Shown here: piece after piece, positions 33,216 to 63,822 of the stretch
Layout: every line of letters begins with the position of its first letter
Numbering within the stretch: the first letter of the stretch is position 1
Assembly (NCBI GenBank): GCA_029881795.1
Contig: JAOULX010000008.1
Location: 1 to 64,000 of the forward strand
Direction of reading: 5' to 3'
DNA from: Gammaproteobacteria bacterium
Lineage (GTDB): Bacteria; Pseudomonadota; Gammaproteobacteria; SZUA-229
DNA length: 64,000 bases
Translations under genes and position numbers: made by a program
Notes under the pieces: generated by a model
The model's input: the letters and a program-made list of their open reading frames with translations, nothing else
Database searches by the model: none
What the model was told of the DNA's origin: nothing

Positions 33216-35354
33216 ATGGCAACCTTCTTCCAGTATATTTTCTCGGCACTCTATTACCTTTTAAAAAACAAATACTACCTGCTGGGACTTATTATCGGTT
33301 CGGCACTTCTCAGCCTGTTGGTTGGAAAAGCCTATCAGGGCTGGGATGACCACCCAAGCCGTGGCGCAATAGCAATTGATAACGGAGCCTTTGGGGAAAG
33401 CTTTTCAACCCCTGTCTATCTTGACCAGGGCTGGTCAGAAGCGGACAGCATGTGGTTTTACAACACCACGCAGGGATCAGCCTTACTGCCCTATGATTTT
33501 TTTCTGGCACTTGAACAGGAAAACAGCGATCAGGCCCTGCTTCGAGATAACAACAACATGGACAAATACCGTTATCTGACACAGGCGAGTAGCTTCTTTA
33601 ACCCGGATGGCTTAGCCGTCGGTTTCACCAAAGAAACCTATCAGGGTAAAGATTACATGGGCTATACCTGTGCAGCCTGTCATACCAGCCAACTTAACTA
33701 TACCGGCGATAACGGCAAAACTACGGCGATTCGAATTGATGGTGGCCCGGCAATGGCAGACATGGTCAGTTTCTTAGCTGATCTTGAAAAATCGATGCAG
33801 GCGACACTCGATCAGAAAGACAAAAAACAGCGTTTTGTTAAACACGTTCTGGCACTGGATAATGACTACTTCAATGAAAATCAGATCATCGCCAGTTTAA
33901 AAGAATGGACCAAAACAATACGTCTGTATAACACCATTAATCACAGTCATATTAAATACGGTTATGCCCGGCTCGATGCATTTGGCCGCATTTATAATCG
34001 CGTGTTGCAACACATGATCAATAAAAAGCAGCTCACACATGCGATGAAAATGGTCACAACAGCGACCGAGAAACGCGTGCTAACGGATGCGGAGATTGAT
34101 AAAGTGCTGGATGGTGTCGGCGAAAACATTATTGTCGACAAACAATTTTCACTGATTATTGAGCGTCTAGCATCTAAAGAAAGCGGTTACCCCGGATTAA
34201 ATCAGCGCGATATTTTACGCGTGCGAAATGAAATTTTTAACGAACCCGATGCACCAGTTAGCTATCCTTTCCTATGGGATATTGCCCAGTCAGATTATGT
34301 GCAATGGAATGGCGTCGCTAATAACAGCGGTGTCGGCCCACTAGGTCGAAATACCGGTGAAGTCATCGGCGTCTTTGCTATCCTCGACTGGACCTCACAA
34401 AAACCCGGCGGTTTTAATCTGTCTGCGCTGTTGACCGGACAGAAGAAAAAAAATGAAATCGTTGATTTCACCTCATCAGCCGATCTGGTTAACCTGAAAC
34501 GTCTTGAATCACACTTGAAGAGCCTCAAGTCACCGCAATGGCCTGAGGATATTCTTGGCAAAATTGATCCGCAAAAAGCCGCCAGAGGCCAGCATCTTTA
34601 TGCTGAATATTGTCAGTCATGCCATGAAGTCATCGATAGAAATAATTATGATCGTATCGTCGTTGCACAAATGACCGAACTCGGTTTTATCGGCACCGAT
34701 ACCGCAGCCGCGACCAATGCCGTCGCCTACAAAGGCAAATCAGGCAACTTAAAACACACGGTACAGTCAACTGATGTCGGCGACCTGATCATTGGAGAAG
34801 ATGCACCGGTGGTACAAATTTTGACCTCGGCAACCAAAGGTGTGATTGCCACACCGGATGCCGACAAATGGTTTTTGCGCCGCTGGTTAGACCGTATTTA
34901 TACGATTAGCTCGGCATTTTTTGAAAACAAAATGCCCAACACCATAAAAAGCGGTAACTACAAAGCCGATACCACAGCGCAACCGTATAACTCTCTGCTA
35001 GCGTATAAAGGCCGCTCACTAAATGGCATCTGGGCAACAGCACCTTATCTGCATAATGGTTCTGTACCCACTCTGTACGATTTACTGTTACCGAAAAAAC
35101 GCAAAAACGATCCCGACTCCGGTAAATACCGGCCTGACACATTTATTGTAGGCAGTCGTGAATTTGACCCGAAAAAAATCGGCTTCCGCTCCGATGGATA
35201 CGAAGGCTTCACATTCAATACACATCGCGTGGGTGATATGAACGACGGCCACGAATACGGTGCTGGCAAAACACCTCAAATGGACGGTACACAACTGCCA
35301 GCACTGACAACAGAAGAGCGCTGGGATCTTATCGAATACATCAAAACACTTTAA
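33216..35354 (+). CDS. RoxA-like di-haem c-type cytochrome (oxygenase/peroxidase family)
   Basis: A 712-residue protein with an N-terminal hydrophobic anchor/signal (about residues 18-37) and two haem c sites: C152-A-A-C-H156 (YTCAACHTSQ) and C466-Q-S-C-H470. The C-terminal block APYLHNGSVPTLYDLLLPKK is characteristic of the family of rubber oxygenase RoxA and the cytochrome-c-peroxidase-like fatty-acid dioxygenases of Pseudomonas. These are periplasmic or secreted enzymes that bind O2 at one haem. It is the first of four co-directional genes; the P450 gene follows at 12 bp. Substrate unknown; a classical H2O2-reducing CcpA is much shorter (around 330 residues), so I do not call it that. Confidence 0.8.
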   Translation: MATFFQYIFSALYYLLKNKYYLLGLIIGSALLSLLVGKAYQGWDDHPSRGAIAIDNGAFGESFSTPVYLDQGWSEADSMWFYNTTQGSALLPYDFFLALEQENSDQALLRDNNNMDKYRYLTQASSFFNPDGLAVGFTKETYQGKDYMGYTCAACHTSQLNYTGDNGKTTAIRIDGGPAMADMVSFLADLEKSMQATLDQKDKKQRFVKHVLALDNDYFNENQIIASLKEWTKTIRLYNTINHSHIKYGYARLDAFGRIYNRVLQHMINKKQLTHAMKMVTTATEKRVLTDAEIDKVLDGVGENIIVDKQFSLIIERLASKESGYPGLNQRDILRVRNEIFNEPDAPVSYPFLWDIAQSDYVQWNGVANNSGVGPLGRNTGEVIGVFAILDWTSQKPGGFNLSALLTGQKKKNEIVDFTSSADLVNLKRLESHLKSLKSPQWPEDILGKIDPQKAARGQHLYAEYCQSCHEVIDRNNYDRIVVAQMTELGFIGTDTAAATNAVAYKGKSGNLKHTVQSTDVGDLIIGEDAPVVQILTSATKGVIATPDADKWFLRRWLDRIYTISSAFFENKMPNTIKSGNYKADTTAQPYNSLLAYKGRSLNGIWATAPYLHNGSVPTLYDLLLPKKRKNDPDSGKYRPDTFIVGSREFDPKKIGFRSDGYEGFTFNTHRVGDMNDGHEYGAGKTPQMDGTQLPALTTEERWDLIEYIKTL

Positions 35355-35366
35355 GGAAACAGATTC

Positions 35367-36698
35367 ATGAGCAAGGATTTTCTGGCTGAATACGACGCAG
35401 CCAGCGATGCTGACAAATATCCGCTGGTACAAAAGTGGATGAAGACAACACCGCTGGAATTTTTTAAACAGCTGCGAAAACAAAGACCAGTTCTGGTCAC
35501 ACCGCAATGTACATTACTGGCCCTGTTCACTGATGTACGCGATGTCTTGCAAATGCCCGAGATATTCACGGTCGATCTTTACAAACCCAAAATGGGGGTG
35601 ACTGATAGCGACCCCGGATATCTGATGGCACACGATGATGATGCCCTGCACTATCGTGAAAAATCTCTGATGCAAGGCATGCTGAATCGCGATGATATTC
35701 CACGTGTCAGAAAAATAATTGAGCACGCAGCAAAAGAAATTCTGGATGATGCCCGCGGCAATATAGAAATTGTCAACAACTACTGCCGTATGGTACCGGC
35801 CATCATGGTGCAGAAATATTTCGGACTGGATGGCATCAATCGCAAGAAATTACTCAAATGGTCATTCTGGAACCAGTACAACACTTTTCACAATCAGCCT
35901 TTTGATCTGAACTCAAAAGAAACCTTTGAGCATATCGTTAGCACCCACGAAAAATGCTCCGACGAACTGGTCGATTACATCACCGTATTAATGATACGCA
36001 AAGTGCTGACGGTAAAAATTAAAGACCGCTTATTTGGTAGCTATATTAAAATCAGCAACCTGCTGCGCAGCCCGTTCGGACTGAAACCTCTAGCCATCAA
36101 AGACGATATCGTCAAACGCATGATACGCAGTTCATTTGCCGAGCAGGTAGATTTTCCACTGACCCGTATCGGCGTCAATGCCGGCGGATTGTTAATCGGC
36201 GCCGTTGAAACCACTTCTCAGGCAGTGGCACAGGTACTGCAGTTTTTTTTCCAACAACCACAACTGCTGGCACAGGTTAAAGCGGCTGCCAGTAAAGCAG
36301 ACAACACAGAAATTGACAGCCTGGTATGGGAAGCGCTGCGTTTTGTACCCATCAGCCCTTATATGTTCCGCCAGGCCGCGCAGGATTACACCATCGCCAA
36401 AGGCACCGACAGAGAAACCACAATACTAAAGGGCACCAATGTATTAACCCTGACCCAGTCAGCAATGTTTGATAACTATGCCTACGAAGACCCGGATCAA
36501 TTTAAAGCCGAACGGCACTGGTACCACAATTTTAACTACGGCTTTGCCTCACACGACTGTCTTGGTAAATATATTGGCATGGCAATGATTCCGGAAATGG
36601 TAAAACAGGTGATGTTACGCCACCAGATACAGCCCAGCGCGCCCATCGATTATAAAGAAGGACCGTTTCCGGAAGAATATATGCTGACATGGAAATAA
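35367..36698 (+). CDS. Cytochrome P450
   Basis: A 443-residue soluble P450 with no signal peptide, so cytosolic. The I-helix motif is GAVETT (residues 278-283), the K-helix ExxR is E322-A-L-R325, and the haem thiolate is Cys398 in YGFASHDCLGK; that loop keeps Gly at -6, His at -2 and Gly at +2 but has Tyr for Phe at -7 and Ala for Gly at -4. No ferredoxin or ferredoxin reductase gene is adjacent. It lies between di-haem oxygenase-like genes, so it probably acts on the same substrate chain, possibly on a hydroperoxide product. It does not match a P450 subfamily I can name. Confidence 0.85.
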   Translation: MSKDFLAEYDAASDADKYPLVQKWMKTTPLEFFKQLRKQRPVLVTPQCTLLALFTDVRDVLQMPEIFTVDLYKPKMGVTDSDPGYLMAHDDDALHYREKSLMQGMLNRDDIPRVRKIIEHAAKEILDDARGNIEIVNNYCRMVPAIMVQKYFGLDGINRKKLLKWSFWNQYNTFHNQPFDLNSKETFEHIVSTHEKCSDELVDYITVLMIRKVLTVKIKDRLFGSYIKISNLLRSPFGLKPLAIKDDIVKRMIRSSFAEQVDFPLTRIGVNAGGLLIGAVETTSQAVAQVLQFFFQQPQLLAQVKAAASKADNTEIDSLVWEALRFVPISPYMFRQAAQDYTIAKGTDRETTILKGTNVLTLTQSAMFDNYAYEDPDQFKAERHWYHNFNYGFASHDCLGKYIGMAMIPEMVKQVMLRHQIQPSAPIDYKEGPFPEEYMLTWK

Positions 36699-36795
36699 AC
36701 TGCCGCTTTGATTAGCCAAGCCTGACAGTAAATTAAAGAACCGCTGACAGCTGACCTTCTGCAACCAGTCCGTTCAACACAAGAGGATGGAAACC

Positions 36796-38613
36796 ATGAA
36801 CAAGCCGAGTCTTTATAAAGTATTTGCAATCATTATCGCAGCTATTACATTTAACAGCGCCTGTTCCGACAAACCACTTGAAGCGCCTTCAGGGCCCGCC
36901 TTTGTCAAAAAAATTCCGCAAAACTGGTCCAGCTATCAAGCACAACAGACAGCAGACAAAGCCCGTTATATCCAGCAAAAACAAACGGCCTTTGACTGGT
37001 TCGCCGACTTTGCCTTTAGTGAAACCGATGGCACACCGTATATCGCGTTACGCCTGCTGCCAGTTATCGCACCGGAGTTATGGGGCAGCGCCGATAATTT
37101 TCTCGATGTCATCGGGCTGTTCAATGATCCGCGCCAAGGCGACTACCCGATGCCACGCGGCATTGGCATCAGCGCGTTAGCCAGCAACGACCCCGCAAGC
37201 CATGTCGATTACACCTCATTCACCTGCGCTGCCTGTCATATTGGGCGGCTAGAAAAAAGCAAAACCGAAACCCTTTATATTGATGGCGGCATTAATTCTG
37301 AATTTAATATTGTGCTATACCGGGTCAAGGTATATCAGACCCTGCAAAAAATCATCGGCACTGAAACCGACAAACTCAAACAACATCAGCTGATTATCAA
37401 CGCCTTTCTTGATGCGCTGCAAACAGCCCGTCAAAGTGACAGCCACTTTTTTTACCGCAACTATAAAAATTTTACGGCCGCGTATGAAAAAATCCAGATC
37501 GAATTATTCATCCGACATGCTGGAGAATTACTAAGCCGCTTTGCCGAACGTTCGATAGCAAACTACCAAGGCTATGGTGCCTTGCTCAACAAAAATTACA
37601 ACGGATTTCAGAGTCGATCATTACAGGGCTTTCCAGGCATGGCCGATGCCACCGGCATTTTTACCGTTAACTCATATAATGAAGCAAAAAAAGGTTTCTT
37701 TACTCAGTTCTTTGCCTCATTCGTTTTACCCGACTCGCCAGGCATTACCGACTTTATGTCGGTCTGGCAGCAGCAAGATCGAAAAGCACAATGGGACCCG
37801 TCGCATAAATCTCTGATCAATGGCGGCGGTCAGTGGAATGGCAACATTCCTATCCCGATCTATCGCAATCTCGCCGCGCAGTCGACACTCGGCTTGTCGA
37901 ATATAGATATACGCGTGTCTGCCTTTGCCGAAGATTTACTTGATCAGCTACCGGCTTCTGTTTATCCGTTTGATGTCGACCTGAAACTGGCGGCAAAAGG
38001 TCAGGAACTGTTCACTGAAAACTGCGCACAGTGTCATCAGCCTCATAACGGCAAAGTCTATGATAATTTAAACCTCAACAAAGATCGCAGCTATGTCGTT
38101 AACTGGTTAATACGGCGTGGCGGCATCAGCGGCTTTAATGACACCTGTTCGGTACAGACCACTGTCAAAATCAAGGGCCAAACCATGCAACCCTGTGCCG
38201 AATTTGACGGTGTCTCGCTGGCCGGAAAAAAAGACCTGATCATCTCGCCTAATAACCAGCATCACGGCTACAACGCACGCCCACTAAGCGGCATCTGGGC
38301 GCAAGCGCCGTATTTGCATAATGGCTCGGTACCCACGGTTTATCACCTGCTGGTGCCTGACCAACGCCCTTCAAAATTTTATAAAAGTCGGCTGCAATAC
38401 GACCAGAAGCATCTCGGTTTTGCCTGGACAGCACCAACAGCCGAACAGCAAAAAACATCACATGCCTATGTGTTTGATAGCAACAGTTTTCCAGCCTTCA
38501 GCAATGCCGGTCACGACAGCGACATCACAGAAAACGGCCGGCATTATAAACTCGACTGGTCAGATGATCAGGCCGGAGCCATGGCAATTATCGAATACCT
38601 TAAAACCTTATAA
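36796..38613 (+). CDS. Di-haem c-type cytochrome, RoxA/fatty-acid-dioxygenase-like, paralogue 1
   Basis: A 605-residue precursor with a lipoprotein-like signal (ITFNSAC; the -3 position is Asn, so the lipobox is imperfect). ATG 36796 is used because AGAGGA lies eight bases upstream; ATG 36787 is directly on that site. Haem sites are C144-A-A-C-H148 and C410-A-Q-C-H414, and the C-terminal block is APYLHNGSVPTVYHLLVP. It is about as long as the 10S-dioxygenase and diol synthase of P. aeruginosa (PA2077/PA2078), which belong to the same broad family. It is closely similar to the next gene along its whole length (shared FNDxR, YIDGGINSEFN, LINGGGQWNG and LDWSDD blocks), indicating tandem duplication. 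Confidence 0.8.
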   Translation: MNKPSLYKVFAIIIAAITFNSACSDKPLEAPSGPAFVKKIPQNWSSYQAQQTADKARYIQQKQTAFDWFADFAFSETDGTPYIALRLLPVIAPELWGSADNFLDVIGLFNDPRQGDYPMPRGIGISALASNDPASHVDYTSFTCAACHIGRLEKSKTETLYIDGGINSEFNIVLYRVKVYQTLQKIIGTETDKLKQHQLIINAFLDALQTARQSDSHFFYRNYKNFTAAYEKIQIELFIRHAGELLSRFAERSIANYQGYGALLNKNYNGFQSRSLQGFPGMADATGIFTVNSYNEAKKGFFTQFFASFVLPDSPGITDFMSVWQQQDRKAQWDPSHKSLINGGGQWNGNIPIPIYRNLAAQSTLGLSNIDIRVSAFAEDLLDQLPASVYPFDVDLKLAAKGQELFTENCAQCHQPHNGKVYDNLNLNKDRSYVVNWLIRRGGISGFNDTCSVQTTVKIKGQTMQPCAEFDGVSLAGKKDLIISPNNQHHGYNARPLSGIWAQAPYLHNGSVPTVYHLLVPDQRPSKFYKSRLQYDQKHLGFAWTAPTAEQQKTSHAYVFDSNSFPAFSNAGHDSDITENGRHYKLDWSDDQAGAMAIIEYLKTL

Positions 38614-38658
38614 GCGCCATACTACAATCAATTTAAAAATAAAGTTACCGGAGTACTC

Positions 38659-40500
38659 ATGCTAAAACGTGCTTTAATGCTCACGCTTATTGTCTTACCC
38701 GTTATCGTTTTAGTTGGCTATGGCAAACTCAGTGGTTTGTTCCAAAGCCGCCTTAAAGCGCCTGAACCTCCGGCGGTTGTACAGCCAGTGCCCACTGACT
38801 GGCAGTCCACGCAACAGCAAAGGCGCACGGAGATTTCAGCGCACTTACAAAAACACCAGGAAAACTACGAACACTTTGCCAATTTCCCGGTCAGCAAAAC
38901 GCAGGGAATCCCGCTGATAGCGCTTAAACTACTGCCTAAACTCGCGCCCGAATTTTGGGGTGATGAAGACAACTTTCTTTCCGTAATGGGTTTATTCAAT
39001 GATGAACGATTACAAGGCTACCCGTTTCCACGCGGCATCGGTTTTACCAGCCTTGTTCGCGAACAACTAGATGCCGATATCGATTACGCCTCATTCACCT
39101 GTGGTGGCTGTCATATCGGTCGGCTGCGCCATGATGACGGTCATTACGAGTATCTCGATGGCGGCGTGAATTCAGAATTTAATGTGATTGGTTACCGCCT
39201 GCGTATTGTACAGACACTCAATAAACTCTACGGCAAAGAAACAGACCGAGAGAGAAAAAACAACATCATCATCGAAGCCATGCTGGCCGCACTGGACAGC
39301 ACGCACAGCCAAAATCCCAATTACTTTTATAACAACTATTCATATGGCGGTCGCAACTTTGACAGTAACTACGAGAGCAAACAGATTCTGTTATTTAAAC
39401 AAGATGCTGCCAACATCATCACGCAGTTTATACAACATCAGGAAACGGTTTATCAGGGCTGGCAGATTATTGCGAAAAAGCTCTACCCGAATATCGAACA
39501 ACGCATCAGCTCAGGTTTTGCCGGTATGGAAGATGCCATCGGTTTTAATGCCGCAGCCGTCTACCAGAATCTAAAAAGCGGCAGCTTAACGCAACTCGTT
39601 GCACCATTAGCCTTACCCAGATCGCACGGCGTGACGGATATCATGGTGGTATGGAATCAGGACACGCATGATCCGCGCTGGAACACAGACAAAACCCGCT
39701 TAATCAACGGCGGTGGCCAATGGAACGGACACATCCCGTTACCCATTTACAAAAACATTGCCGCACAAATCACGCTCGGCTTTGATGATATCGACATCAG
39801 CGTATCAGCACATTCAGAGCGGCTATTAAAAGACCTGCCAGCCGCCATATACCCGTTTGATGTCAATCTTGAACTGGCTCGCAAAGGTCAGGCACTGTTT
39901 GCAGAAAACTGCGCAGCCTGTCACCAACCCAACAACGGCAAAGTCTACACCCAGATGGGAACGGATATGGGCCGCGCAAAAGTCGCCGGCACCGTCATCA
40001 CCGTCGGCGCACAGTTAAGCTTTGCCGGTGACAAAAATTGCTCGCCAGACACCAGCATCGAACTCGAAGGCGCGCAGGTAAAACCCTGCGCCAGCTACCG
40101 TGGTGTCTCACTCAAAGACCAGAGTAAACAAGTCATGTTAGCGCCCAAAGTACACAACGGCTACAACGCCCTGCCACTGGTCGGCCTGTGGGCACAAGCT
40201 CCCTATCTGCACAACGGCTCCGTACCCACGCTCTACCACATGCTAGTGCCAGCAGAGCGCCCCGATGTGTTCGTAAAAAGTCGACTCGATTACGACACAA
40301 AAAATGTCGGCTTCAACTGGCAGCAAGACACCTGGAGCAATAAAAAAGAAGGCTATCTGTATAACACCACCGCCTCACCGGCCACCAGTCATGCTGGCCA
40401 CGACCACGACATCACAGAAAATGGAAGGACTTACAAACTTGACTGGAGTGATGACAAACCTAGCGCATGGGCTTTGATAGAATATTTGAAAACACTGTGA
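38659..40500 (+). CDS. Di-haem c-type cytochrome, RoxA/fatty-acid-dioxygenase-like, paralogue 2
   Basis: A 613-residue protein with an N-terminal hydrophobic helix (LMLTLIVLPVIVLVGYG), probably an uncleaved anchor or signal. Haem sites are C148-G-G-C-H152 and C418-A-A-C-H422; the C-terminal block is APYLHNGSVPTLYHMLVP. It differs from its upstream paralogue at the first haem motif (CGGCH against CAACH) and in anchoring (helix against lipoprotein-like signal), which suggests separate roles, such as dioxygenase and isomerase/diol synthase, in one pathway. It is the last gene of the operon; a REP-like inverted pair follows. Confidence 0.8.
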   Translation: MLKRALMLTLIVLPVIVLVGYGKLSGLFQSRLKAPEPPAVVQPVPTDWQSTQQQRRTEISAHLQKHQENYEHFANFPVSKTQGIPLIALKLLPKLAPEFWGDEDNFLSVMGLFNDERLQGYPFPRGIGFTSLVREQLDADIDYASFTCGGCHIGRLRHDDGHYEYLDGGVNSEFNVIGYRLRIVQTLNKLYGKETDRERKNNIIIEAMLAALDSTHSQNPNYFYNNYSYGGRNFDSNYESKQILLFKQDAANIITQFIQHQETVYQGWQIIAKKLYPNIEQRISSGFAGMEDAIGFNAAAVYQNLKSGSLTQLVAPLALPRSHGVTDIMVVWNQDTHDPRWNTDKTRLINGGGQWNGHIPLPIYKNIAAQITLGFDDIDISVSAHSERLLKDLPAAIYPFDVNLELARKGQALFAENCAACHQPNNGKVYTQMGTDMGRAKVAGTVITVGAQLSFAGDKNCSPDTSIELEGAQVKPCASYRGVSLKDQSKQVMLAPKVHNGYNALPLVGLWAQAPYLHNGSVPTLYHMLVPAERPDVFVKSRLDYDTKNVGFNWQQDTWSNKKEGYLYNTTASPATSHAGHDHDITENGRTYKLDWSDDKPSAWALIEYLKTL

Positions 40501-43300: not shown

Positions 43301-46300
43301 TTACATACTCCAGCTATAACTGAGCGCCTCCGCCTGTCTCAAACACAAATCAATGGCCTCATCAGCCCCATCTGGTGGGTATTTCCATTTACGTAATGCA
43401 CGTCTTACTAAATTACGTAGTTTTGCTCTAACACTATCGCGCACCTGCCAGTCAACGGTTGTGCTTTTACGCAACTGTTCGGTAACGTATTTAGCCAGTT
43501 CACGTAGATTATTATCGCCTAATTCACGTACAGCCGATTCATTTTGAACAAGCGCTCTGTAAAAGGCAATTTCATCGGGGTTAAGCCCCAGCTTATCAGC
43601 CGCATTTAAGTCAGCTTCCATTTCTTTGGCTAAGGCGATCAGCTCTTCAATAACCTGTGCGGTTTCGATGGCACGGTTATGGTATTTACGCAATGTTTCC
43701 ATTATGCGATCTGAGTATTTCTTCTCCGAGACCACATCGGTTTTCATGCGGGCTTTGATTTCATCTCGCAATAGCTTTTCTAACAATTCCATTGCCAGAT
43801 TACGCTGCGGCATGTTTTTAACGTCTTCTAAAAACTCATCGGAGAGTAAACCGATATTGGGCTTTTCCAGCCCTACCATATCGAACACATCAGACACACC
43901 ATCGGCAATGATCGCATTATCAATAATCTGTTTTAAGGCAGAATTCTTTTCTTCGTCGGTGCGTCGTTTATCAATACTGGTAAATTTACTAATGGCAGAT
44001 TTCACAGCTGACAGAAATGCAATTTCTTTTTTAAGGCCATCGGCTTCATCCATAGTTCCGCATAATGTATAGGCTTTAGAAATCGCAGCCATCACATCAA
44101 GGAAACGTTTTTTGCCATCTTCAAGCCCTAAGACATGATTCATGGCACCAGGCAATAGCTGTAAGGCTTTTGTTTCATACCCACTGTAATCAAAGCCATG
44201 CATCATGCCATGAACCACATCCATCTTTTCTAGCAGAATCGCATAGGCTTCTCGGGTATCTAATGTCGGCGCACCTTTACCTTTAGAATCGGTATAGGTT
44301 TTCAAGGCATGCTTTAATTCACTAGCTATACCTATGTAGTCCACCACCAGACCACCCGGTTTATCTTTGAACACCCGGTTAACCCTGGCAATCGCCTGCA
44401 TCAGGTTATGGCCTTTCATGGGCTTGTCGATATACATGGTATGACAGTTAGGTGCATCAAAGCCGGTCAGCCACATATCGCGCACAATCACTAACTGCAA
44501 AGGGTCATTCACATCTTTAAAGCGTTTTTCGAATAACTTTTTAGTTTCTTTGTTGTAGATATGCGGTTGCAACTTAGATTTGTCGGATGCCGACCCCGTC
44601 ATCACGATCTTAATCGCGCCTTTATGGGTATCGGTATCATGCCATTCGGGCTTGATGGCAACGATGGCGTTGTACATATCCACACAGATTTCACGGCTCA
44701 TGCAAACAATCATGCCTTTACCGGGCATTGCAGCAATGCGCTTTTCAAAATGCTCGACTAAATCTTTACCCACCAGCTGCATACGCGGTTCACTGCCAAC
44801 CAGTTTTTCTAAAGCCGCCCATTTAGATTTGGTGCTTTCACGGGTGGCAACGTCTTCTTCATCTTCAATGACTTCATCAACTTCGTCATTCAGCGCTTCC
44901 ATTTCTGCCTGATTAATATCGAGCTTGGCTAAGCGTGATTCGTAATAGATAGGAACAGTCGCCCCATCGTCAACCGCATCCTGAATATCATAGATTGAGA
45001 CATAATCACCAAACACGGCACGGGTGTCTTTGTCTTCAGCGGAAATCGGTGTGCCGGTGAAACCAATAAACGATGCTTGCGGTAACGCATCGCGCATGTG
45101 TTTAGAGTAACCAAAGGTGTATTGGCCTGTCTTACTATTGAGCTTGGCTTTATCACCATATTGGCTTCGGTGCGCTTCATCACTGACCACAACAATATTA
45201 TGACGATTGCTTAAAACTGGGTGTGCGGTTTCATCTCCTAACAAAGCAAACTTTTGAACCGTGGTGAAAATAATGCCACCTGACTGGCGCGAAGCTAAAA
45301 TATCACGCAAATCATCACGGTCACTGGCTTGTACCGGTGTTTGTTTTAAAGTTTCTGCTGCCATGCTAAAGGTATTGAATAACTGGCCATCTAAGTCATT
45401 ACGGTCAGTCACCACTACAATGGTTGGGTTATTCATTTCCGGCTGCGCTAATAGTTTACCGGCATAACAGACCATCGAAATCGACTTACCCGAACCTTGG
45501 GTATGCCAGACCACCCCCGCCTTACCAGAACCGGGCTCGACCTTGTCAGCATAATTAGCACGCTGCTCACCTGCACCTTGTTTTTGTGCCGCAATAACTG
45601 TGGCCTTTACCGCTTCACGCACAGCATGGAACTGGTGATAACCGGCAATCTTTTTAATCGGCACATCACCATCTTGTTCAAACAAGATAAAGTAGTGAAT
45701 GTAATCTAAAAATAACTCAGGCTTAAAGAAGCCTTTAACAAGAGTTTCTAATCGATATTCAAATACCGGCTTATCATCTTCATGTTCAATCGTTCGCCAG
45801 GGCAAAAAACGTTCTTTGTTTGCTGTAAGCGAGCCTACTCTGGCATTTAAACCATCACTTACGACCAAGGCTTCGTTGTACACAAATAAATCGGGCGTTT
45901 CATCTTTATAGGTTTGCAATTGTTGATAAGCCGACCAAATATCCGCACTTTCATCTGCCGGGTTTTTCAGTTCAATTACCGACAGAGGTATGCCATTAAC
46001 AAACACAATCACATCAGGACGTCGATTCCCTTTACTGCCGGTAATAGTGTATTGATTAACAACTAAGAATTGATTGTTATCGACATTACTGAAATCGATC
46101 AGCTGTACGTAATCTGTTTTATCAACTGTTTTACCATCATTGACATCAACCTTAAATTCAACCTTTACCCCTTCCAGTAAAAACTGGTGAAAGGCTTTAT
46201 TGCTTTTAATCAGTACAGGGGTTTCAGGCTTGGCGATTTGCTGGGCGACGGTTTCGAGCGTAGTAACGGGAATATGTGGATTAATGATTTGTAATTGGTG

Positions 46301-46450
46301 AATCAGCCGATCAAACAGAACAATCTGGCGGTAATCAGTACGCTCTGGTGATTCGCCATCGGGGGCAATATCGTAACCACAGACATAGTCATATCCGATG
46401 ACCTTAAACCAGTCTAGGGTGAGTTGTTCTAGTTGATCTTCGGTGATCAT
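43301..46450 (-). CDS. hsdR: Type I restriction endonuclease subunit R (HsdR)
   Basis: A 1049-residue ATP-dependent translocase and nuclease subunit. The N-terminal PD-(D/E)XK nuclease is seen as RRPDVIVFVNG then PLSVIELKN (about residues 142-162); the helicase part has VWHTQGSGKSISM (Walker A), VVVSDEAHRSQYG (DEAH), FTGTPI, and later LTGFDAPNCHTMYIDKPM and AIARVNRVF. Full length and intact, so the system is likely active. It is the last gene of the operon and is separated from hsdS by the STAND and NYN genes. The gap to the STAND gene is 43 bp, the widest inside the operon. Confidence 0.96.
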   Translation of the reverse strand: MITEDQLEQLTLDWFKVIGYDYVCGYDIAPDGESPERTDYRQIVLFDRLIHQLQIINPHIPVTTLETVAQQIAKPETPVLIKSNKAFHQFLLEGVKVEFKVDVNDGKTVDKTDYVQLIDFSNVDNNQFLVVNQYTITGSKGNRRPDVIVFVNGIPLSVIELKNPADESADIWSAYQQLQTYKDETPDLFVYNEALVVSDGLNARVGSLTANKERFLPWRTIEHEDDKPVFEYRLETLVKGFFKPELFLDYIHYFILFEQDGDVPIKKIAGYHQFHAVREAVKATVIAAQKQGAGEQRANYADKVEPGSGKAGVVWHTQGSGKSISMVCYAGKLLAQPEMNNPTIVVVTDRNDLDGQLFNTFSMAAETLKQTPVQASDRDDLRDILASRQSGGIIFTTVQKFALLGDETAHPVLSNRHNIVVVSDEAHRSQYGDKAKLNSKTGQYTFGYSKHMRDALPQASFIGFTGTPISAEDKDTRAVFGDYVSIYDIQDAVDDGATVPIYYESRLAKLDINQAEMEALNDEVDEVIEDEEDVATRESTKSKWAALEKLVGSEPRMQLVGKDLVEHFEKRIAAMPGKGMIVCMSREICVDMYNAIVAIKPEWHDTDTHKGAIKIVMTGSASDKSKLQPHIYNKETKKLFEKRFKDVNDPLQLVIVRDMWLTGFDAPNCHTMYIDKPMKGHNLMQAIARVNRVFKDKPGGLVVDYIGIASELKHALKTYTDSKGKGAPTLDTREAYAILLEKMDVVHGMMHGFDYSGYETKALQLLPGAMNHVLGLEDGKKRFLDVMAAISKAYTLCGTMDEADGLKKEIAFLSAVKSAISKFTSIDKRRTDEEKNSALKQIIDNAIIADGVSDVFDMVGLEKPNIGLLSDEFLEDVKNMPQRNLAMELLEKLLRDEIKARMKTDVVSEKKYSDRIMETLRKYHNRAIETAQVIEELIALAKEMEADLNAADKLGLNPDEIAFYRALVQNESAVRELGDNNLRELAKYVTEQLRKSTTVDWQVRDSVRAKLRNLVRRALRKWKYPPDGADEAIDLCLRQAEALSYSWSM

Positions 46451-46493
46451 CGATTAAGCTTTTACAGGTAACATATAATATCTAACACACCCA

Positions 46494-48776
46494 TTAGTTT
46501 TCATTTGAACAATATTGTAAAAACTTTTCAAAAGAACCATTTGAACGAGCTATTGCCTCATTTATTAAATGTAATGAAGGATTTAGTTTAAAACGACGCT
46601 GCGGCATACCACCACGATTCTCGATTTCCTCAAGAACACCATTTTTTATAAGCCTAGGCAACTCATTCTCAATAAACCCAGATCCATTAGGTCCTAGTTT
46701 AATTTTTATAACACTTTCACTAATATGAGTGCTTCTCATAAAATAACGGATTATTTTTTCTATGTTACGCAGTTCCAAATCTAGCTTAAACTCTTCATCC
46801 TGAACATCACCTGCACCATCTTCTAAAGTAAAAGTAAAACCTAACGCCAAAACTTGGCGTTTAATATCTACAGGGTCCCAAGTTTCAACACCTTCTTCAG
46901 GACGTGATAAAGCATCCACAACACATTCATCAAATATCACATTAGAAACTCTAGTTGAGTTATAAACTCTGATCTGAGAAAAATCACAATTATGAAGTTC
47001 ACATTCATCAATCTCAGTTAATTCAAGACTGGTGGGTGAAAAATAACAATCTACGAATTTAATTCCATTCAGCTTTTTATCTCTTAAAATATCCACTCCA
47101 AATGCCAGACCACTTAGTGAAATACCATAACCTTTAATACCATCCAGCAGCATTACTATAATATCACTACAATTTTCATGCGTGTAGGATGTCTGCACAT
47201 CCATACCACTTATTTCAAGTAAAAATTTTACTATATCTAACAATCTTGTATTAGCTTCACGTTTTAGTGCAAGCACTAATGCATGTTGAGCTTGTGGCGG
47301 GAGCACACCTCTGCGAAAAACAGAAAACACTTCTGCCTGGGTGGATTTCGTCATAGGGAGTAATTGTTTTGCTATACCTTCCCCTAAAAAAAACAATCTA
47401 AACTCGTCATGATCAAACTCAACAGCCTTCTCTGAGTTTGATGAAGGAACCAACATAGCATGCCCACGAATACGCTCTCGTATCTGTTGAGCCTCGTAAT
47501 TATCCTTACGATTTACTTCACTAAAATAATCAGCAACAAATTCTAAGTTTTCTCGTTTAAGGTAATCTACCTTTGCTTCCCACATTGAAAGAGAGACTTG
47601 TGCAAGAATATCACAATGCTCTTCAACCTTTAGGAGAGGCGCCCCTACATCTTTATCACCCGAACGATCAATCCACTTTTCGTTTGCTTCTCTTTCAATA
47701 AGACTTCGAACAAATGCCGAAAAGAAATCTGTACCAGACTGCTGTATCTTCTCAAGAAACCCATCAAGCGAACTACTCTCATTCACAACATCAATAAGCC
47801 TCTTTACTAACACAGCACGCGTCAAAATAGCATGTTCAGTACCTAGTCGCTCACTCACTTTTTGATATAATTCTTTAGAATTAGGGATATTCCGATTGTT
47901 ACAGTAATCTATGAACTGTTTCTCAGCCCATCGTTCTAGTTCAATCTTTCCAAATCCAACAGAGTAGTTTCGTATTGAGTCGAATAGGCGCTCTTGTGTT
48001 TTTAAATTTTCAAACTCAAAATATGCTTTCCTTGCTGCTACAATCATTGCACCTTGAGACTCCAACGATCCTACAAGTATCCCCATAGCTGAAAGTGCTT
48101 CACCTGAACTGCTTTCAACAAACATTTCCTCAAACCCATCAAAAGCAGGAACAATAACACCCATTTTTACTAGCGCCAGGAATGAGTTGTAATAAAGAAA
48201 AGGAAATCTATATCGGTTCTGCAAAGCACCTATTGTAATGTCGTCAAAACGTAGAAAATGTCTTCCTCCAAGCGGGATAGGAACCATAAGCCAATCTGTT
48301 TTATTTTCAGTAAATAGTTTAGCCTGCGCACGCGACATTTCATTTATAAGTGACGTTTTTCCTTCACCTGCATCACTTGTAATGTAAAGAACCGTAGTTT
48401 CTAATGGGCTACGATTATTTAATGTTTCAATAGTTGTCGCTAGCGCATTTTCAGTGGTGACGATCTCTTCCTCTGGCCCACTTTCAAGAGTAGGTAAAAG
48501 ACCTGCGGCTGGTATAACAAAATGATTAGTTGGCATTACACTTGACGATAATCGTGCTGCAAGTAACTGTAGCCTAGCTAATCTATTCACAATCCATTTA
48601 CTAGCTGGCTCTTTACCCGATCCCTCATCAATATAGACATCCCCTGAATCAGATGAAATGTTTGCCTCAATGAGATCGCCATTAACCTGAATGACAACCT
48701 GTGTTTTTTCAAACAACATTTCTGTACCAGGATCAGCAAAGGTTTCTACAATAGCCTTAAAATCTTTAATTTGCAT
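46494..48776 (-). CDS. STAND/NACHT-like P-loop NTPase with pentapeptide-like and winged-helix C-terminal parts
   Basis: A 760-residue protein I cannot match to a named family. Residues 1-60 form a small N-terminal domain. The NTPase core has Walker A SDAGEGKTS (134-142), a NACHT-style Walker B VPAFDGFEEM (209-218) and an R-sensor-like strand AMIVAARK (243-250). FDHDEFRLFFLGEGIA (454-469) matches the winged-helix 'F-H-x-x-F-x-x-F' element behind STAND NTPase cores. Residues 569-620 show pentapeptide-like alternation (FVDCYF, CELHNCDFS, VIFDECVV), and 665-735 look like a wHTH. The start is 2 bp after the NYN gene stop, so the two are coupled. It is AT-richer by eye than hsdM and hsdR. A role as sensor or regulator of the NYN nuclease is inferred. 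Confidence 0.7.
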   Translation of the reverse strand: MQIKDFKAIVETFADPGTEMLFEKTQVVIQVNGDLIEANISSDSGDVYIDEGSGKEPASKWIVNRLARLQLLAARLSSSVMPTNHFVIPAAGLLPTLESGPEEEIVTTENALATTIETLNNRSPLETTVLYITSDAGEGKTSLINEMSRAQAKLFTENKTDWLMVPIPLGGRHFLRFDDITIGALQNRYRFPFLYYNSFLALVKMGVIVPAFDGFEEMFVESSSGEALSAMGILVGSLESQGAMIVAARKAYFEFENLKTQERLFDSIRNYSVGFGKIELERWAEKQFIDYCNNRNIPNSKELYQKVSERLGTEHAILTRAVLVKRLIDVVNESSSLDGFLEKIQQSGTDFFSAFVRSLIEREANEKWIDRSGDKDVGAPLLKVEEHCDILAQVSLSMWEAKVDYLKRENLEFVADYFSEVNRKDNYEAQQIRERIRGHAMLVPSSNSEKAVEFDHDEFRLFFLGEGIAKQLLPMTKSTQAEVFSVFRRGVLPPQAQHALVLALKREANTRLLDIVKFLLEISGMDVQTSYTHENCSDIIVMLLDGIKGYGISLSGLAFGVDILRDKKLNGIKFVDCYFSPTSLELTEIDECELHNCDFSQIRVYNSTRVSNVIFDECVVDALSRPEEGVETWDPVDIKRQVLALGFTFTLEDGAGDVQDEEFKLDLELRNIEKIIRYFMRSTHISESVIKIKLGPNGSGFIENELPRLIKNGVLEEIENRGGMPQRRFKLNPSLHLINEAIARSNGSFEKFLQYCSNEN

Positions 48777-48778
48777 GC

Positions 48779-49504
48779 TTAAAGGTCCAGTTCAAGTAAT
48801 TGAGCACCACCATGTGGAAACGTTGCTCTTTGATTACTTTGTTTCGGGTGGAATCTAATTACTTCTTTTCCATTCAAAATAACAGTTCGAAGTGGCGGTA
48901 GAAAATCATCATCACCACTAATTAATATTATTTTATCCATTTGTTCAAATGATGCCTGAATCAAATCACAAGAAAGCATAGTATCAACGATCTTCTGCTC
49001 TTTTCTATATATAAGATCATCGGCCAACACGCCACAATTTTGTTTTGGACACCTGCGCTTCTTAATAAGTTTTTTCATTAATGGAAGCACACATTCAGCA
49101 TCAACACATCCAACATTATGAGGCTCTTCAACTCGAATGTTGCCAGGCCTCCCTCTTCTACGTAGTGTATTAAACAGATGATGACCAGGTTCTATCATTA
49201 AAGCTACTGCCAATTCTGCATTTATTGCCACCTGAATATATTTACCATAACCATCAGGCAAACGTATAACTGTCGGGAAATCATTCTGAATCTCAACCGT
49301 TACCATTTGTGCAAGGTGAGTTATGTCTACGCCTTCGTACCAACCGCCATAGATACGAACATCACACGTTATTCTAGTAAATTCCGCATCTACTGGTAAC
49401 TGAATCAAAGCTTTCCTTACTATATCTAGTATCCCAGCAGATTTTTGCGTATCCAAAAGATTATCATAATCAATAAATATTACGAATTTTAACTGTCGAC
49501 TCAT
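48779..49504 (-). CDS. NYN-domain (PIN-like) putative RNase with a four-Cys insert
   Basis: A 241-residue protein with the NYN/PIN-like acidic residues in order: FIDYDN (D12, D14, N15), KIVDTMLSCD (D174, D180) and LISGDDDFLPPL (D198-D200). These form the metal site of NYN nucleases such as LabA-like and MARF1-type RNases. Between the second and third blocks lies a putative zinc knuckle, C133-X4-C138 and C152-X4-C157, beside a basic stretch KKLIKKRRC. The ATG overlaps the hsdS stop (ATGA, 4 bp), so translation is coupled to hsdS, and the STAND gene follows 2 bp after its end. It is an RNase by family, with an unproven substrate. Confidence 0.8.
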   Translation of the reverse strand: MSRQLKFVIFIDYDNLLDTQKSAGILDIVRKALIQLPVDAEFTRITCDVRIYGGWYEGVDITHLAQMVTVEIQNDFPTVIRLPDGYGKYIQVAINAELAVALMIEPGHHLFNTLRRRGRPGNIRVEEPHNVGCVDAECVLPLMKKLIKKRRCPKQNCGVLADDLIYRKEQKIVDTMLSCDLIQASFEQMDKIILISGDDDFLPPLRTVILNGKEVIRFHPKQSNQRATFPHGGAQLLELDL

Positions 49505-51006
49505 GCAACATCACCAGTTGCAGATTGAGCCATTTTACCTATAACCGCCTCTTCTGAAAGGAGCTTTGGAAGTAGCAAATCCCGAACATCTACAAGACTT
49601 CTGTTTTCTTGGTTGTTATTTTCAATCAGATCATAGTAGCCCTTCACTATTTTTGAATAGGCTCGCCTTAAATCTAAAACAGGCAATGTTACGTTCCAAC
49701 TCATAATTGCATCCTTGTCTCCTCTAGGCATTTTTGCACCTTTGGACGTAGCCATCATATAGTTAAAAAAGGCATCCTGATAAAGTAAGTTATATAAATA
49801 CTCAATAGAACTTGAATCAGCAGACTTAATGCCAAGAACATCAGCTGACCTGCCTCCCTCAAATTGGCATAACCATATTTTCATGAAATAAGGACGAATG
49901 TTTGAAACAAGAATATGACCATCTGTAAAGTAAGGAACAGTCTTAACGTTTGGTAAAGATGTTGCGGTGGTTACTCCTCTTTTTCCTTCGAGCATATTTT
50001 CTGTAGAGATATAGTTTTCAACTGTAAGATCCCCAACATTGATTCGTTCATCGCTAAAAACACAAACTTTACTTAATGAACCATACTCCCAACCCTCCGG
50101 TATTTCACCCAAATCAGAAGTCGCACCTGCGCTTCCTGCGCCCGCGACATTTGCACTTCCCTGTGCCGCATCAACCAAAGCATCTGAAAATAAGTCGGCG
50201 ACTGTTTGTAGGGTTTCTGGTGTCCAGTAGTCTAGGCCGATTTCGTTGGGGTATTTTTTGGTGATGAGTGGGTGGAGTTGTGCTTCTAGTCCTTGGTAGT
50301 CTTCTTCTAGTGCTTCTAACTGCTCCAAGGTGATTGCGCCGCTGATGATGGCTTGGGCGGCGAGGGTTTGGGCGAGTTTGTCGCCGCCTTTTTGTTTGGC
50401 GATGATTTTAGCTTTGACGGGCTCAAAGTCGACAAACCAGGATTTGAAAATAGCCTGAGCGATTTGTTCAAGGGTTTGGTTGGTTTGTCGGTTTAGTTTT
50501 AATTTATCGTTAAAACATAGCATTACACTTGCTGCTTCATCCTGAATTTTACGCTCTGGAAGATAAAGCTCAAATTGCCCCAGTACCTTTGCGTTTGCTC
50601 CAGCTTGAGCTGAACCACTTTTTGAACCTGCCACATAACTCCACCAATTTTGAGTGCGCATTTGTAGCCATACAAAATACGGATTTGCCAAATCCGGATT
50701 GACACGAAATCTAATTAAGTAAGATGCGAAAACAGCTTCTTCGCTTGAAGAATAAAGATAATTTTCACCTGTGCTATTTCCAGTGCGCGCAACAACAATA
50801 TCGCCAAACTCTAATTTATTTTTAACTAGACTCCTTTCATCAATTTCACAATAGGGAACATCATCCCACTCAACTTCTCCACCTTGAATATCAGTTATTC
50901 GAAGGAATTTAGGACCCACCTTTTTTTCATTGGCACTTGCTGTATATCCATAAGAAACATCTGTGCATAGATCAGTTAGTTTAACGATTGAATTTTCAAA
51001 CGTCAT
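49501..51006 (-). CDS. hsdS: Type I restriction-modification specificity subunit S (HsdS)
   Basis: A 501-residue DNA-recognition subunit with two target recognition domains (about residues 1-160 and 300-470), the central conserved region (TNQTLEQIAQAIFKSWFVDF, residues about 180-200) and the standard LGEIPEGWEYGSL start of the second TRD. Residues about 279-296 form an unusual Ala/Gly/Ser-rich spacer (AAQGSANVAGAGSAGATS). Both TRD coding parts are AT-rich while the central region is GC-richer, the mosaic expected of TRD exchange. It overlaps hsdM by 11 bp and the NYN gene by 4 bp. Confidence 0.93.
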   Translation of the reverse strand: MTFENSIVKLTDLCTDVSYGYTASANEKKVGPKFLRITDIQGGEVEWDDVPYCEIDERSLVKNKLEFGDIVVARTGNSTGENYLYSSSEEAVFASYLIRFRVNPDLANPYFVWLQMRTQNWWSYVAGSKSGSAQAGANAKVLGQFELYLPERKIQDEAASVMLCFNDKLKLNRQTNQTLEQIAQAIFKSWFVDFEPVKAKIIAKQKGGDKLAQTLAAQAIISGAITLEQLEALEEDYQGLEAQLHPLITKKYPNEIGLDYWTPETLQTVADLFSDALVDAAQGSANVAGAGSAGATSDLGEIPEGWEYGSLSKVCVFSDERINVGDLTVENYISTENMLEGKRGVTTATSLPNVKTVPYFTDGHILVSNIRPYFMKIWLCQFEGGRSADVLGIKSADSSSIEYLYNLLYQDAFFNYMMATSKGAKMPRGDKDAIMSWNVTLPVLDLRRAYSKIVKGYYDLIENNNQENRSLVDVRDLLLPKLLSEEAVIGKMAQSATGDVA

Positions 51007-55923: not shown

Positions 55924-57120
55924 TTATACATCCTGCACATCAAAATTAACGATGGGGTCAACATCGGCTTCATAATCGACGCCTTCAAAACCGAAACCAA
56001 ATAGCTTAAGAAATTCGTCTTTGTATTTCTGAAAGTCTGTCGTTTCAAATAAATTAGCGTCGGTTACTGCTGAGATGATATTGATGCATTTTTGCTGCAC
56101 ATCTTCACGCAGTTCCCAGTCGTCCATACGGTAACGGCGCATATCATCCAGTTCTGGCGTGCCATTATTAAATAACTGAGTGCGATAAAGTCGTTCCAGC
56201 TGTTCGATACAGCCTTCGTGAATCCCCAGCTGTTTCATGATTTTAAACGAGGTGGCGATGTAAATTGGCATCACCGGTATCGCGGCAGAGGCCTGGGTGA
56301 CGACACTCTTGAGCACCGCTACATTGGCCTCGCCATGGATATCTGCCAGCGATTTGGTAATATCGCTTGCTGCGCGATCAACGTCTTCTTTGGCTTTACC
56401 GAGAGTGCCGTGCCAGTAGATTGGCCAGGTGATGTCTGAACCGATATAGCCAAATGCCACGGTTTTAACGCCTTCGGCCAGTACGCCGCCTTCGCGCAGT
56501 GCTTTGATCCACAGTTCCCAGTCTTCGCCGCCCATCACTTTGATGGTATTTGCGATTTCATCATCGTTTGCCGGATCAATCTCAACATCGACCAGTATAT
56601 CTTTATTGGTATCAATCGCTCGCGATCGATATGACTCGCCAATCGGTCTGAGCGCCGAGCGGATGACTTCTCCACTATCCGGGTGCTTTCTGACCGGTGA
56701 TGCCAGGGAATAGACCACCAGATCGACCTCACCCAGATCGGCTTTAATGGTTTCAACGACTTTGGCTTTCATTTCGTGAGAGAAGGCATCGCCATTGAAG
56801 CTTTTGGAATAGAGTCCAGCGGCTTTTGCTGCCTTATCGAAGGCGGCAGAGTTATACCAGCCGGCTGATGCGGTCTTTTTATCTGTCGCAGCTTTTTCTA
56901 AAAACACACCTATTGTGGCGGCATCTGAACCAAATGCAGCAGTAATTCGCGATGCCAGACCGTAGCCAGTAGATGCGCCGATCACCAGCACTTTCTTAGG
57001 CCCGTTGGCATTTTTCCCGGCTTTTTTAACAATCTCTATCTGCTGGTTTACATTGGCTTCACAGCCAGCAGGATGGGTAGTTGTGCAGATAAAACCGCGT
57101 ACTTTTGGTTTAATGACCAC
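55924..57120 (-). CDS. fabV: Trans-2-enoyl-ACP/CoA reductase FabV
   Basis: A 398-residue NADH-dependent enoyl reductase of the FabV type, catalysing the last step of fatty-acid elongation. [21 protein letters not shown] at the N-terminus, [15 protein letters not shown] as the nucleotide-binding motif, and the catalytic Tyr-X8-Lys ([10 protein letters not shown]) are present. The start is GTG at 57120, matching the family N-terminus (usually MIIKP). A FabI is also encoded at 63034, so the genome carries two enoyl reductases. FabV is typically triclosan-resistant. Confidence 0.95.
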
Positions 57121-63033: not shown

Positions 63034-63822
63034 ATGGGCTTTTTAAACGGAAAGCGTGCTTTGATTCTTGGTGTTGCCAGTAAAAAATCCATTGCCTGGG
63101 GTATTGCCGAGGCGATGCATCGAGAAGGCGCGGAACTTGCCTTTACCTATCAAAATGAACGCCTTAAAGAACGCGTTGCTAAATACGCCGGTGAACTGGG
63201 TTCAGATATTGTCATTCCCTGCAATGTTGCCGATGATGATGAGATTGAAGCGGTATTTGAGCATCTCGACGATTACTGGGATCACCTCGATATTCTGGTT
63301 CACTCAATCGCTTTTGCCCCCAAAGAACTGCTCGAAGGTGATTATCTCGACAACCTGACCCGTGAAGGCTTTAATATGGCCCACGATATCAGCTCTTACA
63401 GTCTGGCGGCACTGGCCCGAGCCGGTCGTCATATGATGCAGGATCGTGAAGATGCCAGTATTCTCACACTCAGTTATATCGGCGCAGTACGCACCTTTAG
63501 TGGATATAACGTAATGGGACTGGCTAAAGCCTCGCTGGAGGCAAATGTACGCTATCTGGCTGATAACCTTGGCCCCGATGGAATCCGGGTTAATGCGATA
63601 TCAGCCGGCCCAATTCGCACACTGGCTGCATCAGGCATCGGTAGCTTTAAGAAGATTCTTGATCACACAGAAAAAAATGCACCATTGCGGCGAAATGTAA
63701 CGATCGAAGATGTGGGTAATTCGGCAGCGTTTATGACATCTACCTTAGCCCGAGGTATTACCGGTGAGATTCTTTATGTTGATAGTGGCTTTAATATTAT
63801 CGGACTGAAAGATCACGATTAA
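63034..63822 (+). CDS. fabI: Enoyl-ACP reductase FabI
   Basis: A 262-residue NADH-dependent short-chain dehydrogenase-type enoyl reductase. Nucleotide-binding region [20 protein letters not shown], the catalytic Tyr-X6-Lys pair in [20 protein letters not shown], and [14 protein letters not shown] are the FabI pattern. A strong ribosome site AGGGAG precedes ATG 63034. Essential fatty-acid enzyme unless FabV at 55924 covers its role. Confidence 0.97.

Follow-up and report, generated by a model that had tools for sequence, protein, structure and literature searches.

Most of what is known about oxylipin synthesis by bacterial di-haem proteins comes from a single species, P. aeruginosa, and its PA2077/PA2078 pathway, the products of which act as signals (PMC6377657). 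The pathway comprises an oleate 10S-dioxygenase and a 7,10-diol synthase, two di-haem, RoxA-like paralogues encoded in one operon, for which a P450 or catalase-like partner has not been described. Other lipid oxygenases have a P450 or a catalase-related haem protein as companion, as in fungal DOX-CYP fusions, in plant LOX and CYP74, and in Nostoc, where a linoleate 10S-dioxygenase is found in tandem with a catalase-related hydroperoxide lyase (cited in PMC13049297). The oxygenases of these pairs are animal-peroxidase-like proteins or non-haem lipoxygenases, and the P450s of DOX-CYP and CYP74 pairs are specialised for hydroperoxides. RoxA, RoxB (LatA) and RoxC, on the other side, are exported proteins of about 65-80 kDa with two covalent c-type haems, a PY(F/L)HNGSVP block and a bis-His haem 2. 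The locus presented here shares all these traits with the Rox proteins, and its c-type di-haem genes are accompanied by a P450 gene, which resembles the pairs listed above.

The four-gene locus and its di-haem proteins

Within the window, the whole stretch of 64,000 nucleotides that was analysed, positions 33216-40500 of the + strand hold the four co-directional genes of the original prediction, three coding for di-haem proteins and one for a P450, bordered by an unrelated DEAD-box helicase gene and by a UPF0149 gene on the opposite strand. The core genes are DH1 (33216-35354), which encodes a 712-amino acid protein with an N-terminal TM helix anchor, and the companion P450 (35367-36698; 443 amino acids, without export signal), the sole P450 detected in this genome. 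DH2 (36787-38613; 608 amino acids, lipoprotein-like N-terminus) and DH3 (38659-40500; 613 amino acids, N-terminal TM anchor) are accessory genes, and their products are 47% identical. The successive intergenic gaps measure 12, 88 and 45 nt. A promoter scan gave no excess of sites over shuffles; terminator-like sites were in excess (22 versus 10.6 in shuffles), but mostly on the other strand, and were given no weight.

The three di-haem proteins each match the Pfam family RoxA-like_Cyt-c (PF21419) with 64-70 bits, for a cut-off of 26.7 bits. They had been ranked equally in the original prediction, but only DH1 belongs to NF040606 (595 bits over model positions 1-524, for a cut-off of 150 bits on the whole-protein score), whereas DH2 and DH3 score just below this cut-off (142 and 125 bits) and form a clade apart from DH1 in the tree. 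DH2 and DH3 are a rarer, lineage-specific addition to the core pair. The APYLHNGSVPT block and the two CXXCH motifs first noticed per protein were found again, with exactly two such motifs in each: CAACH152-156 (33669-33683) and CQSCH466-470 (34611-34625) in DH1, CAACH147-151 and CAQCH413-417 in DH2, and CGGCH148-152 and CAACH418-422 in DH3. Their spacing is 314, 266 and 270 residues in DH1, DH2 and DH3 respectively, versus 235-245 residues in PA2077/PA2078.

In DH1, residues C152, C155 and H156 of the haem-1 attachment site are invariant among aligned relatives and, by analogy with RoxA H195, haem 1 would be the active-site haem. The block APYLHNGS609-616 (35040-35063) is the equivalent of RoxA PYFH517NGSVP; its H613-N-G-S is invariant and profile-aligned to the MauG-type H517 block of RoxA. 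Residue H679 (35250-35252), part of an invariant G678-H679, is the equivalent of RoxA H641, the second axial ligand of haem 2, and this RoxA-type ligand is retained in all three proteins. A distal-pocket block, Q363-W364-N-G...R378-N379-x-G-E382-V-I-G-V-F387, was located by alignment at 34302-34376. Q363, which is invariant, and W364, present in >90% of relatives, align with RoxA F301-W302; RoxA shares with DH1 a Trp beside the distal pocket. The position of RoxA F317 corresponds to F387 by profile alignment and to G385 by ungapped reading, and an equivalent Phe is not evident in DH2 and DH3. PA2077 also carries Gln for RoxA F301 and keeps the Trp at W302 (PMC4496055), a likeness to DH1-3 drawn from published residue tables only; a search through the tandem PF21419 genes of 369 genomes from the class turned up none with the published PA2077/PA2078 fingerprint.

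The companion P450 and the partners of NF040606 genes

The P450 matches Pfam p450 (PF00067) with 47.7 bits and was judged from its sequence alone. The acid-alcohol pair is kept in the I-helix motif G278-A-V-E281-T282-T283 (36198-36215), with E281, T282 and T283 invariant in 28 aligned sequences; the ExxR residues E322 and R325 are invariant among aligned companions, as are C398, H396 and G400 of the loop NYGFASHDCLG, which contains the haem-thiolate Cys398 (36558-36560). Companion P450s keep a full O2-activation set (G-A/S-x-E-T-T-S, ExxR and Cys loop), in contrast to the hydroperoxide-specialised P450s of DOX-CYP and CYP74 pairs. P450s of the LDS type carry an SRS4 Asn near the haem iron, which is dispensable in some enzymes (PMC13049297). 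This Asn appears to be absent from the aligned companions, and the P450 lacks an export signal while the di-haem proteins are predicted to be exported; the LDS-like isomerisation of a hydroperoxide initially proposed for this P450 is not supported by such features.

The pairing of P450 and di-haem genes extends well beyond this locus, as anticipated. Sixty P450 relatives from named genomes were compared; in 57 of the 59 loci that could be evaluated, the gene next to the P450 on its strand codes for a di-haem protein. In 54 of the 60 this is a DH1 gene directly upstream of the P450 and co-directional with it, and in 3 further loci a DH3 gene directly downstream. In an even sample of the class (369 genomes), an NF040606 gene adjoins the P450 in 6/7 non-own P450 carriers, against 18/368 genomes that hold the family. 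The conserved core is the DH1-P450 pair, which spans Gamma-, Beta- and Alphaproteobacteria and one Verrucomicrobiota MAG, with carriers such as Endozoicomonas, Rheinheimera, Nitrosomonas, Methylobacter, Kiloniella and a Verrucomicrobiaceae MAG. Across genera, di-haem genes are the only family that recurrently adjoins the pair. The neighbours conserved among Nitrosomonas loci were left out of the count, as they look like chromosomal context common to that genus. Searches of open-licence full texts yielded no publication dealing with the pair or with NF040606.

In evenly drawn genomes, the partner beside an NF040606 gene is a P450 or a catalase-like haem protein but in no case the two together, and catalase-like proteins are the commonest. 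This partner swap is new here. A patatin or a lactonase is sometimes found beside the di-haem gene as well, patatin, lactonase, dihaem and catalase genes forming one run at two loci of one family, and at one locus an NF040606 gene and a lipoxygenase gene overlap by 10 nt. In P. yeei, the di-haem gene is followed in a row by genes for a catalase-like protein and an animal haem peroxidase. Around 52 sampled NF040606 loci, catalase-like, P450, patatin, lactonase and lipoxygenase genes account for 39 of 204 near genes and for none of 512 far genes, a count which is partly circular since the patatin, lactonase, lipoxygenase and catalase queries were drawn from such neighbourhoods, and in which lipoxygenase rests on one locus and patatin on few. 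Together with an animal haem peroxidase, these neighbours agree with the lipid and hydroperoxide setting foreseen for the locus; the 19 sampled loci devoid of a marker-class gene nearby weigh against lipid oxidation. A lipoxygenase query on four genomes of the genus gave no match, but neither did the control query anywhere, so that the result does not prove lipoxygenase to be absent.

Proposed lipid oxidation and alternative readings

Because relatives of DH1 adjoin lipoxygenases, phospholipases and catalase-like enzymes, these loci point to a bacterial route for the oxidation of unsaturated lipids. We consider the chances evenly balanced that DH1 and the P450 form a two-gene system oxidising an unsaturated membrane lipid in two haem-catalysed steps, with a fatty acyl chain as the likeliest substrate. 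The observations behind this scheme are the order of the genes, the conserved pairing, the kinship of the DH1 fold with that of RoxA, the conserved haem ligands, the partner swap and the lipid-enzyme neighbours of relatives; from these we infer the class of substrate, the order of the steps, the localisation and the action of both enzymes on one molecule. DH1 would sit in the inner membrane with both covalent haems in the periplasm, its N-terminal haem serving as reaction centre and its C-terminal bis-His haem passing electrons via the conserved Trp, and would either add O2 to the lipid or act on a lipid hydroperoxide. Such a lipid can cross the membrane by partitioning or flipping, and in the cytoplasm the P450 would oxidise it a second time, a role probably taken over by the catalase-like haem protein in other lineages, and DH2 and DH3 may extend the pathway in this organism. 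Three features weigh against lipid oxidation: the operon itself contains no lipid genes, no redox partner gene adjoins the P450, and the predicted export of the di-haem proteins places them across the inner membrane from the P450, which has no export signal.

More tentatively, and with the balance somewhat against it, NF040606 proteins may supply the periplasmic, lipid-oxygenating half of an oxylipin machinery that is widespread in bacteria and has yet to be described, the other half being interchangeably a P450 or, in other lineages, a catalase-like protein. This would be a third way of pairing a lipid oxygenase with a haem companion, beside animal-peroxidase-type dioxygenases and lipoxygenases. 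Di-haem lipid oxidation would then be widespread, with DH1-P450 in Nitrosomonas, methanotrophs and marine gammaproteobacteria, and would reach further still through the relatives with a catalase-like partner in a common family of gammaproteobacteria; cultivable carriers would be at hand for testing it, and many annotations as 'di-heme-cytochrome C peroxidase' would be misleading. The partner swap also provides a natural comparison, in which one di-haem scaffold stands beside either of two types of haem companion.

The name given by NCBI to the NF040606 subfamily is precisely 'di-heme-cytochrome C peroxidase', and DH1 could be a di-haem peroxidase that draws on respiratory-chain electrons to reduce lipid or other organic hydroperoxides, in which case no specific oxylipin would be made and the P450 or catalase-like protein would dispose of related peroxides. 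We find such a peroxide defence rather unlikely, about one chance in several, even though catalase-like proteins are the commonest partner and DH1 carries the nearly invariant E382 in an N-x-G-E-V motif resembling, by alignment only, the N-P-V-E-M of a classical CCP-type protein. As DH1 appears to keep this peroxidase-type distal Glu, both oxygenase and hydroperoxide-processing activities are possible for it, and the designation of all three proteins as oxygenases in the original prediction goes further than the CCP/MauG-like Glu of DH1 warrants. The Glu is replaced by Gln in two relatives, and DH2 and DH3 have Ala at this position. Bacterial di-haem CCP, MauG and BthA belong to the same superfamily and resemble DH1 by an N-x-x-E block and a W near haem 1, but they are about half the size of the DH proteins and have no P450 partner. 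The haem-2 ligand of CCP and MauG is Met or Tyr, whereas that of DH1 is His as in RoxA.

The fold of DH1 also argues against peroxide defence. Its AF2 model is closest to RoxA 4b2n (Z 12.8, rmsd 3.9 over 385 residues) and more distant from MauG (Z 6.2-7.0), in keeping with the affiliation to RoxA rather than MauG proposed at the outset; this placement rests on one aligner, VIA-align, in whose list the absence of other families carries no weight, and plain Foldseek against the PDB gave no significant match for the DH1 or DH3 model. The DH3 model was too poor (mean pLDDT 65) and was set aside. RoxA itself is without peroxidase activity (PMC6311187). The phylogeny suggested for checking this affiliation leans the same way, two classical CCP-type sequences falling outside all 62 RoxA-like rows, but with long branches and a midpoint root the tree does no more than point away from CCP membership. 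A monooxygenase-type P450 and neighbours such as lipoxygenase and patatin suit lipid oxidation better than H2O2 defence.

The RoxA-type fold and the bis-His haem 2 would also suit the cleavage of squalene-, carotenoid-, quinone- or hopanoid-type chains in the manner of RoxA, with the P450 oxidising the fragments. Several carriers of the pair, methanotrophs and Nitrosomonas, make hopanoids or related isoprenoids. We nevertheless hold this to be improbable. DH1-3 reach 40-55 bits with the RoxA, RoxB and RoxC models and are not members of these families, the NCBIfam cut-offs of which are 900-1000 bits, values exceeded by the 1025-1074 bits of genuine RoxC proteins from another genome; DH1-3 also fall in separate clades and differ by the Gln in place of F301, the membrane anchoring and the P450 partner. 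An isoprenoid pathway is ranked lower because no such genes recur beside the pair, the recurrent neighbours across genera being di-haem genes, and phospholipase and lipoxygenase genes lie beside relatives.

Finally, maturation of another protein or cofactor by the di-haem protein, as by MauG or MbnH with an indirect link to the P450, is compatible with the common superfamily and the CCP/MauG-like Glu but very improbable, since the tight partner is a P450 that lacks an export signal, a gene for a periplasmic target is not conserved, and the partner switches to a catalase-like protein or a lipoxygenase.

The four-gene cluster and its conserved pair

Four plus-strand genes occupy positions 33216-40500 with intergenic gaps of 12, 88 and 45 nt: DH1 (33216-35354), a cytochrome P450 gene (35367-36698), DH2 (36787-38613) and DH3 (38659-40500). 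Pfam attributed RoxA-like_Cyt-c to the three DH proteins and p450 to the product of the second gene, and each di-haem protein carries two CXXCH motifs and the block APYLHNGSVPT. The NCBI 'di-heme-cytochrome C peroxidase' subfamily model NF040606 (cut-off 150) gave 595 bits with DH1 and sub-threshold scores with DH2 (142) and DH3 (125). Models of the rubber oxygenases RoxA, RoxB and RoxC gave only 40-55 bits with all three (cut-offs 900-1000); by comparison, true RoxC proteins of another genome scored 1025 and 1074 bits. Long hydrophobic N-terminal helices are present in the predicted models of DH1 and DH3, and the N-terminus of DH2 is lipoprotein-like, a feature plainer in its relatives; the P450 sequence has neither kind of start. 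Haem of the c type is joined covalently to its protein outside the cytoplasm, and the P450 lacks a hydrophobic segment, so the membrane is expected to separate the di-haem proteins from the P450.

The core of the gene set is the DH1-P450 pair. A P450-anchored scan of one genome per species returned 60 loci with a close P450 relative (52-80% identical), in 54 of which DH1 is the directly upstream same-strand gene. DH3 lies directly downstream of the P450 in three loci (L050, L051, L055), two have no di-haem neighbour (L056, L068) and one is cut off by a contig end (L095). Carriers of the pair include Endozoicomonas, Rheinheimera, Neptuniibacter, Nitrosomonas, Methylobacter, Kiloniella and one Verrucomicrobiaceae MAG. 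At L041, three successive reading frames 5' of the P450 match DH1 (60, 72 and 68%), representing either tandem copies or a frameshifted gene. Since anchoring on the P450 biases such a scan, the pair was retested in an even draw of 369 genomes of the class: 19 encode a protein above the NF040606 cut-off and 8 have the P450 (E up to 1e-30). With the window's own genome left out, a di-haem gene adjoins the P450 in six of seven carriers, one of these pairs being convergent (L145); the remaining carrier, G357, has the most distant P450.

DH2 and DH3 are distributed differently. Besides the window's own genome, only two members of the class sample, both from one further genus, encode a relative of DH3 (E up to 1e-60); these two also have DH1-P450, on different contigs. 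Of three congeneric genomes, one has all four genes together, and in the other two DH3 is on a different contig from the pair. In L255, from a genome of another class, DH2 is divergent to DH1, and a catalase-like gene then follows DH1. From this distribution, DH2 and DH3 seem to serve the same business as the pair without being required. The original prediction of three oxygenases is accordingly right as to three di-haem proteins, which are better read as one conserved enzyme, DH1, plus two accessory ones. A DH2-like gene on Sinorhizobium fredii NGR234 pNGR234a (L097:10139-12062) is split into separate reading frames, the adjacent catalase-like and DH1-like genes being open. Tandem pairs of smaller RoxA-like di-haem proteins (490-600 aa) forming their own clade are encoded at L143:3069-6368 and L160:7519-10507, and no P450 was detected beside them.

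Pocket of DH1 and motifs of the companion P450

Comparison of the DH1 and Rox family profiles gave 99.9% probability across residues 349-712. For the predicted DH1 model (mean pLDDT 81), a second look with VIA-align clearly placed RoxA as the nearest solved structure (Z 12.8, 385 residues, rmsd 3.9; MauG 6.2-7.0); Foldseek alone returned no significant match, so the fold kinship depends on one aligner. In a 64-row tree, built by a quick method and with some long branches, DH1, DH2/DH3 and the Rox families form separate groups, with two proteins of the di-haem cytochrome c peroxidase (CCP) type outside. The invariant H679 of DH1 corresponds to RoxA H641, the second ligand of haem 2. Q363-W364 aligns with RoxA F301-W302, Q363 being invariant and W364 kept in >90% of relatives; according to published residue tables, PA2077 likewise has Gln in place of the Phe and retains the Trp (PMC4496055). 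There follows R-N-x-G-E382-V-I-G-V-F387, in which the profile alignment sets F387 opposite the essential F317 of RoxA. The N-x-x-E also matches N-P-V-E-M of one classical CCP-type protein in the sample; BthA requires the corresponding Glu for peroxide turnover, and the E382 position is an invariant Ala in DH2/DH3. With RoxA-type residues alongside a CCP-like N-x-x-E, the DH1 pocket is, as judged from sequence, a mix of RoxA-like and peroxidase-like features. From sequence, DH1 may be either an oxygenase or a hydroperoxide-processing enzyme.

Invariant among 28 aligned P450 relatives are G278 and E281-T282-T283 of the I-helix, E322-x-x-R325, and C398 with H396 and G400, a motif set that reads as conventional O2-activating P450 equipment. 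Fungal linoleate diol synthases have instead an Asn close to the iron, dispensable in some (PMC13049297), and the proposed analogy of the P450 to these enzymes is thus not upheld. More distant P450 companions of other NF040606 genes have the same motif pattern and cluster apart from two unrelated P450s, the only outgroup rows. The companion is the only P450 found in its own genome, as is its orthologue in G001, and the genes of the operon include no P450 redox partner.

Interchangeable partners and a possible lipid substrate

Neighbours were scanned, with reference proteins as queries, at 52 NF040606 loci from 22 taxonomic families in two even genome samples, the window's genome excluded. Among 204 genes at most two genes from NF040606 were 22 catalase-like, 8 P450, 5 SMP-30/lactonase-like, 3 patatin and 1 lipoxygenase genes; none of these five classes occurred among 512 genes farther away. 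Some reference proteins originate from sampled loci (L142, L150, L153, L154, L156), so the lipoxygenase counts as a single case, and 13 of the 22 catalase-like cases come from one family (f160). P450 and catalase-like partners, each found in seven families, were never neighbours of the same locus (0/52), and the rest of the loci have none of the five classes near. A catalase-like gene does occur about 5 kb from the pair at two Nitrosomonas loci, which limits this exclusion to the adjacent place.

At L150:7965-11551 a lipoxygenase gene (PF00305, 200 bits) and the NF040606 di-haem gene run in the same direction with a 10-nt overlap, apparently as one operon. Patatin, lactonase, di-haem and catalase-like genes follow one another in two genomes from a single family; Paracoccus yeei has di-haem, catalase-like and animal haem peroxidase genes together; and a patatin gene lies close to the di-haem one in Sinorhizobium fredii NGR234, Methylobacterium radiotolerans and Rhizobium etli plasmids. 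In Nostoc, as cited in PMC13049297, a linoleate 10S-dioxygenase acts with a catalase-related hydroperoxide lyase.

Kinship, motifs and neighbours suggest that the DH1-P450 pair may be a lipid-oxidising system, and as a direction they favour the oxylipin pathway of the original prediction. The di-haem enzyme outside and the P450 inside would act successively on one lipid mobile through the membrane. Peroxide defence is the strongest rival to this lipid-oxidising role. The components are of known kinds; neither the way they are combined nor the exchange of one partner for another appears to have been described, and a literature search of open-licence full texts returned no description of the pair or of NF040606 function.

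Loci L263-L266, L269 and L270, all from family f216 of another class, encode a long form of the NF040606 protein (919-944 aa), each time adjacent to a 598-627-aa protein, which in L263 is a guanylate-cyclase plus TPR protein.

Other features of the window

A minus-strand stretch at 43301-52729, of low GC (0.38) and adjoining a tRNA-Ser, encodes putative HsdR, HsdS and HsdM of a type I restriction-modification set; between HsdR and HsdS are a large P-loop NTPase-like protein and an NYN/PIN-like protein. The stretch is likely a defence island. Two enoyl-ACP reductase genes lie 6 kb apart, at 55924-57120 (minus strand) and 63034-63822 (plus strand); by eye, their products seem to differ in type, one FabV-like and the other FabI-like.
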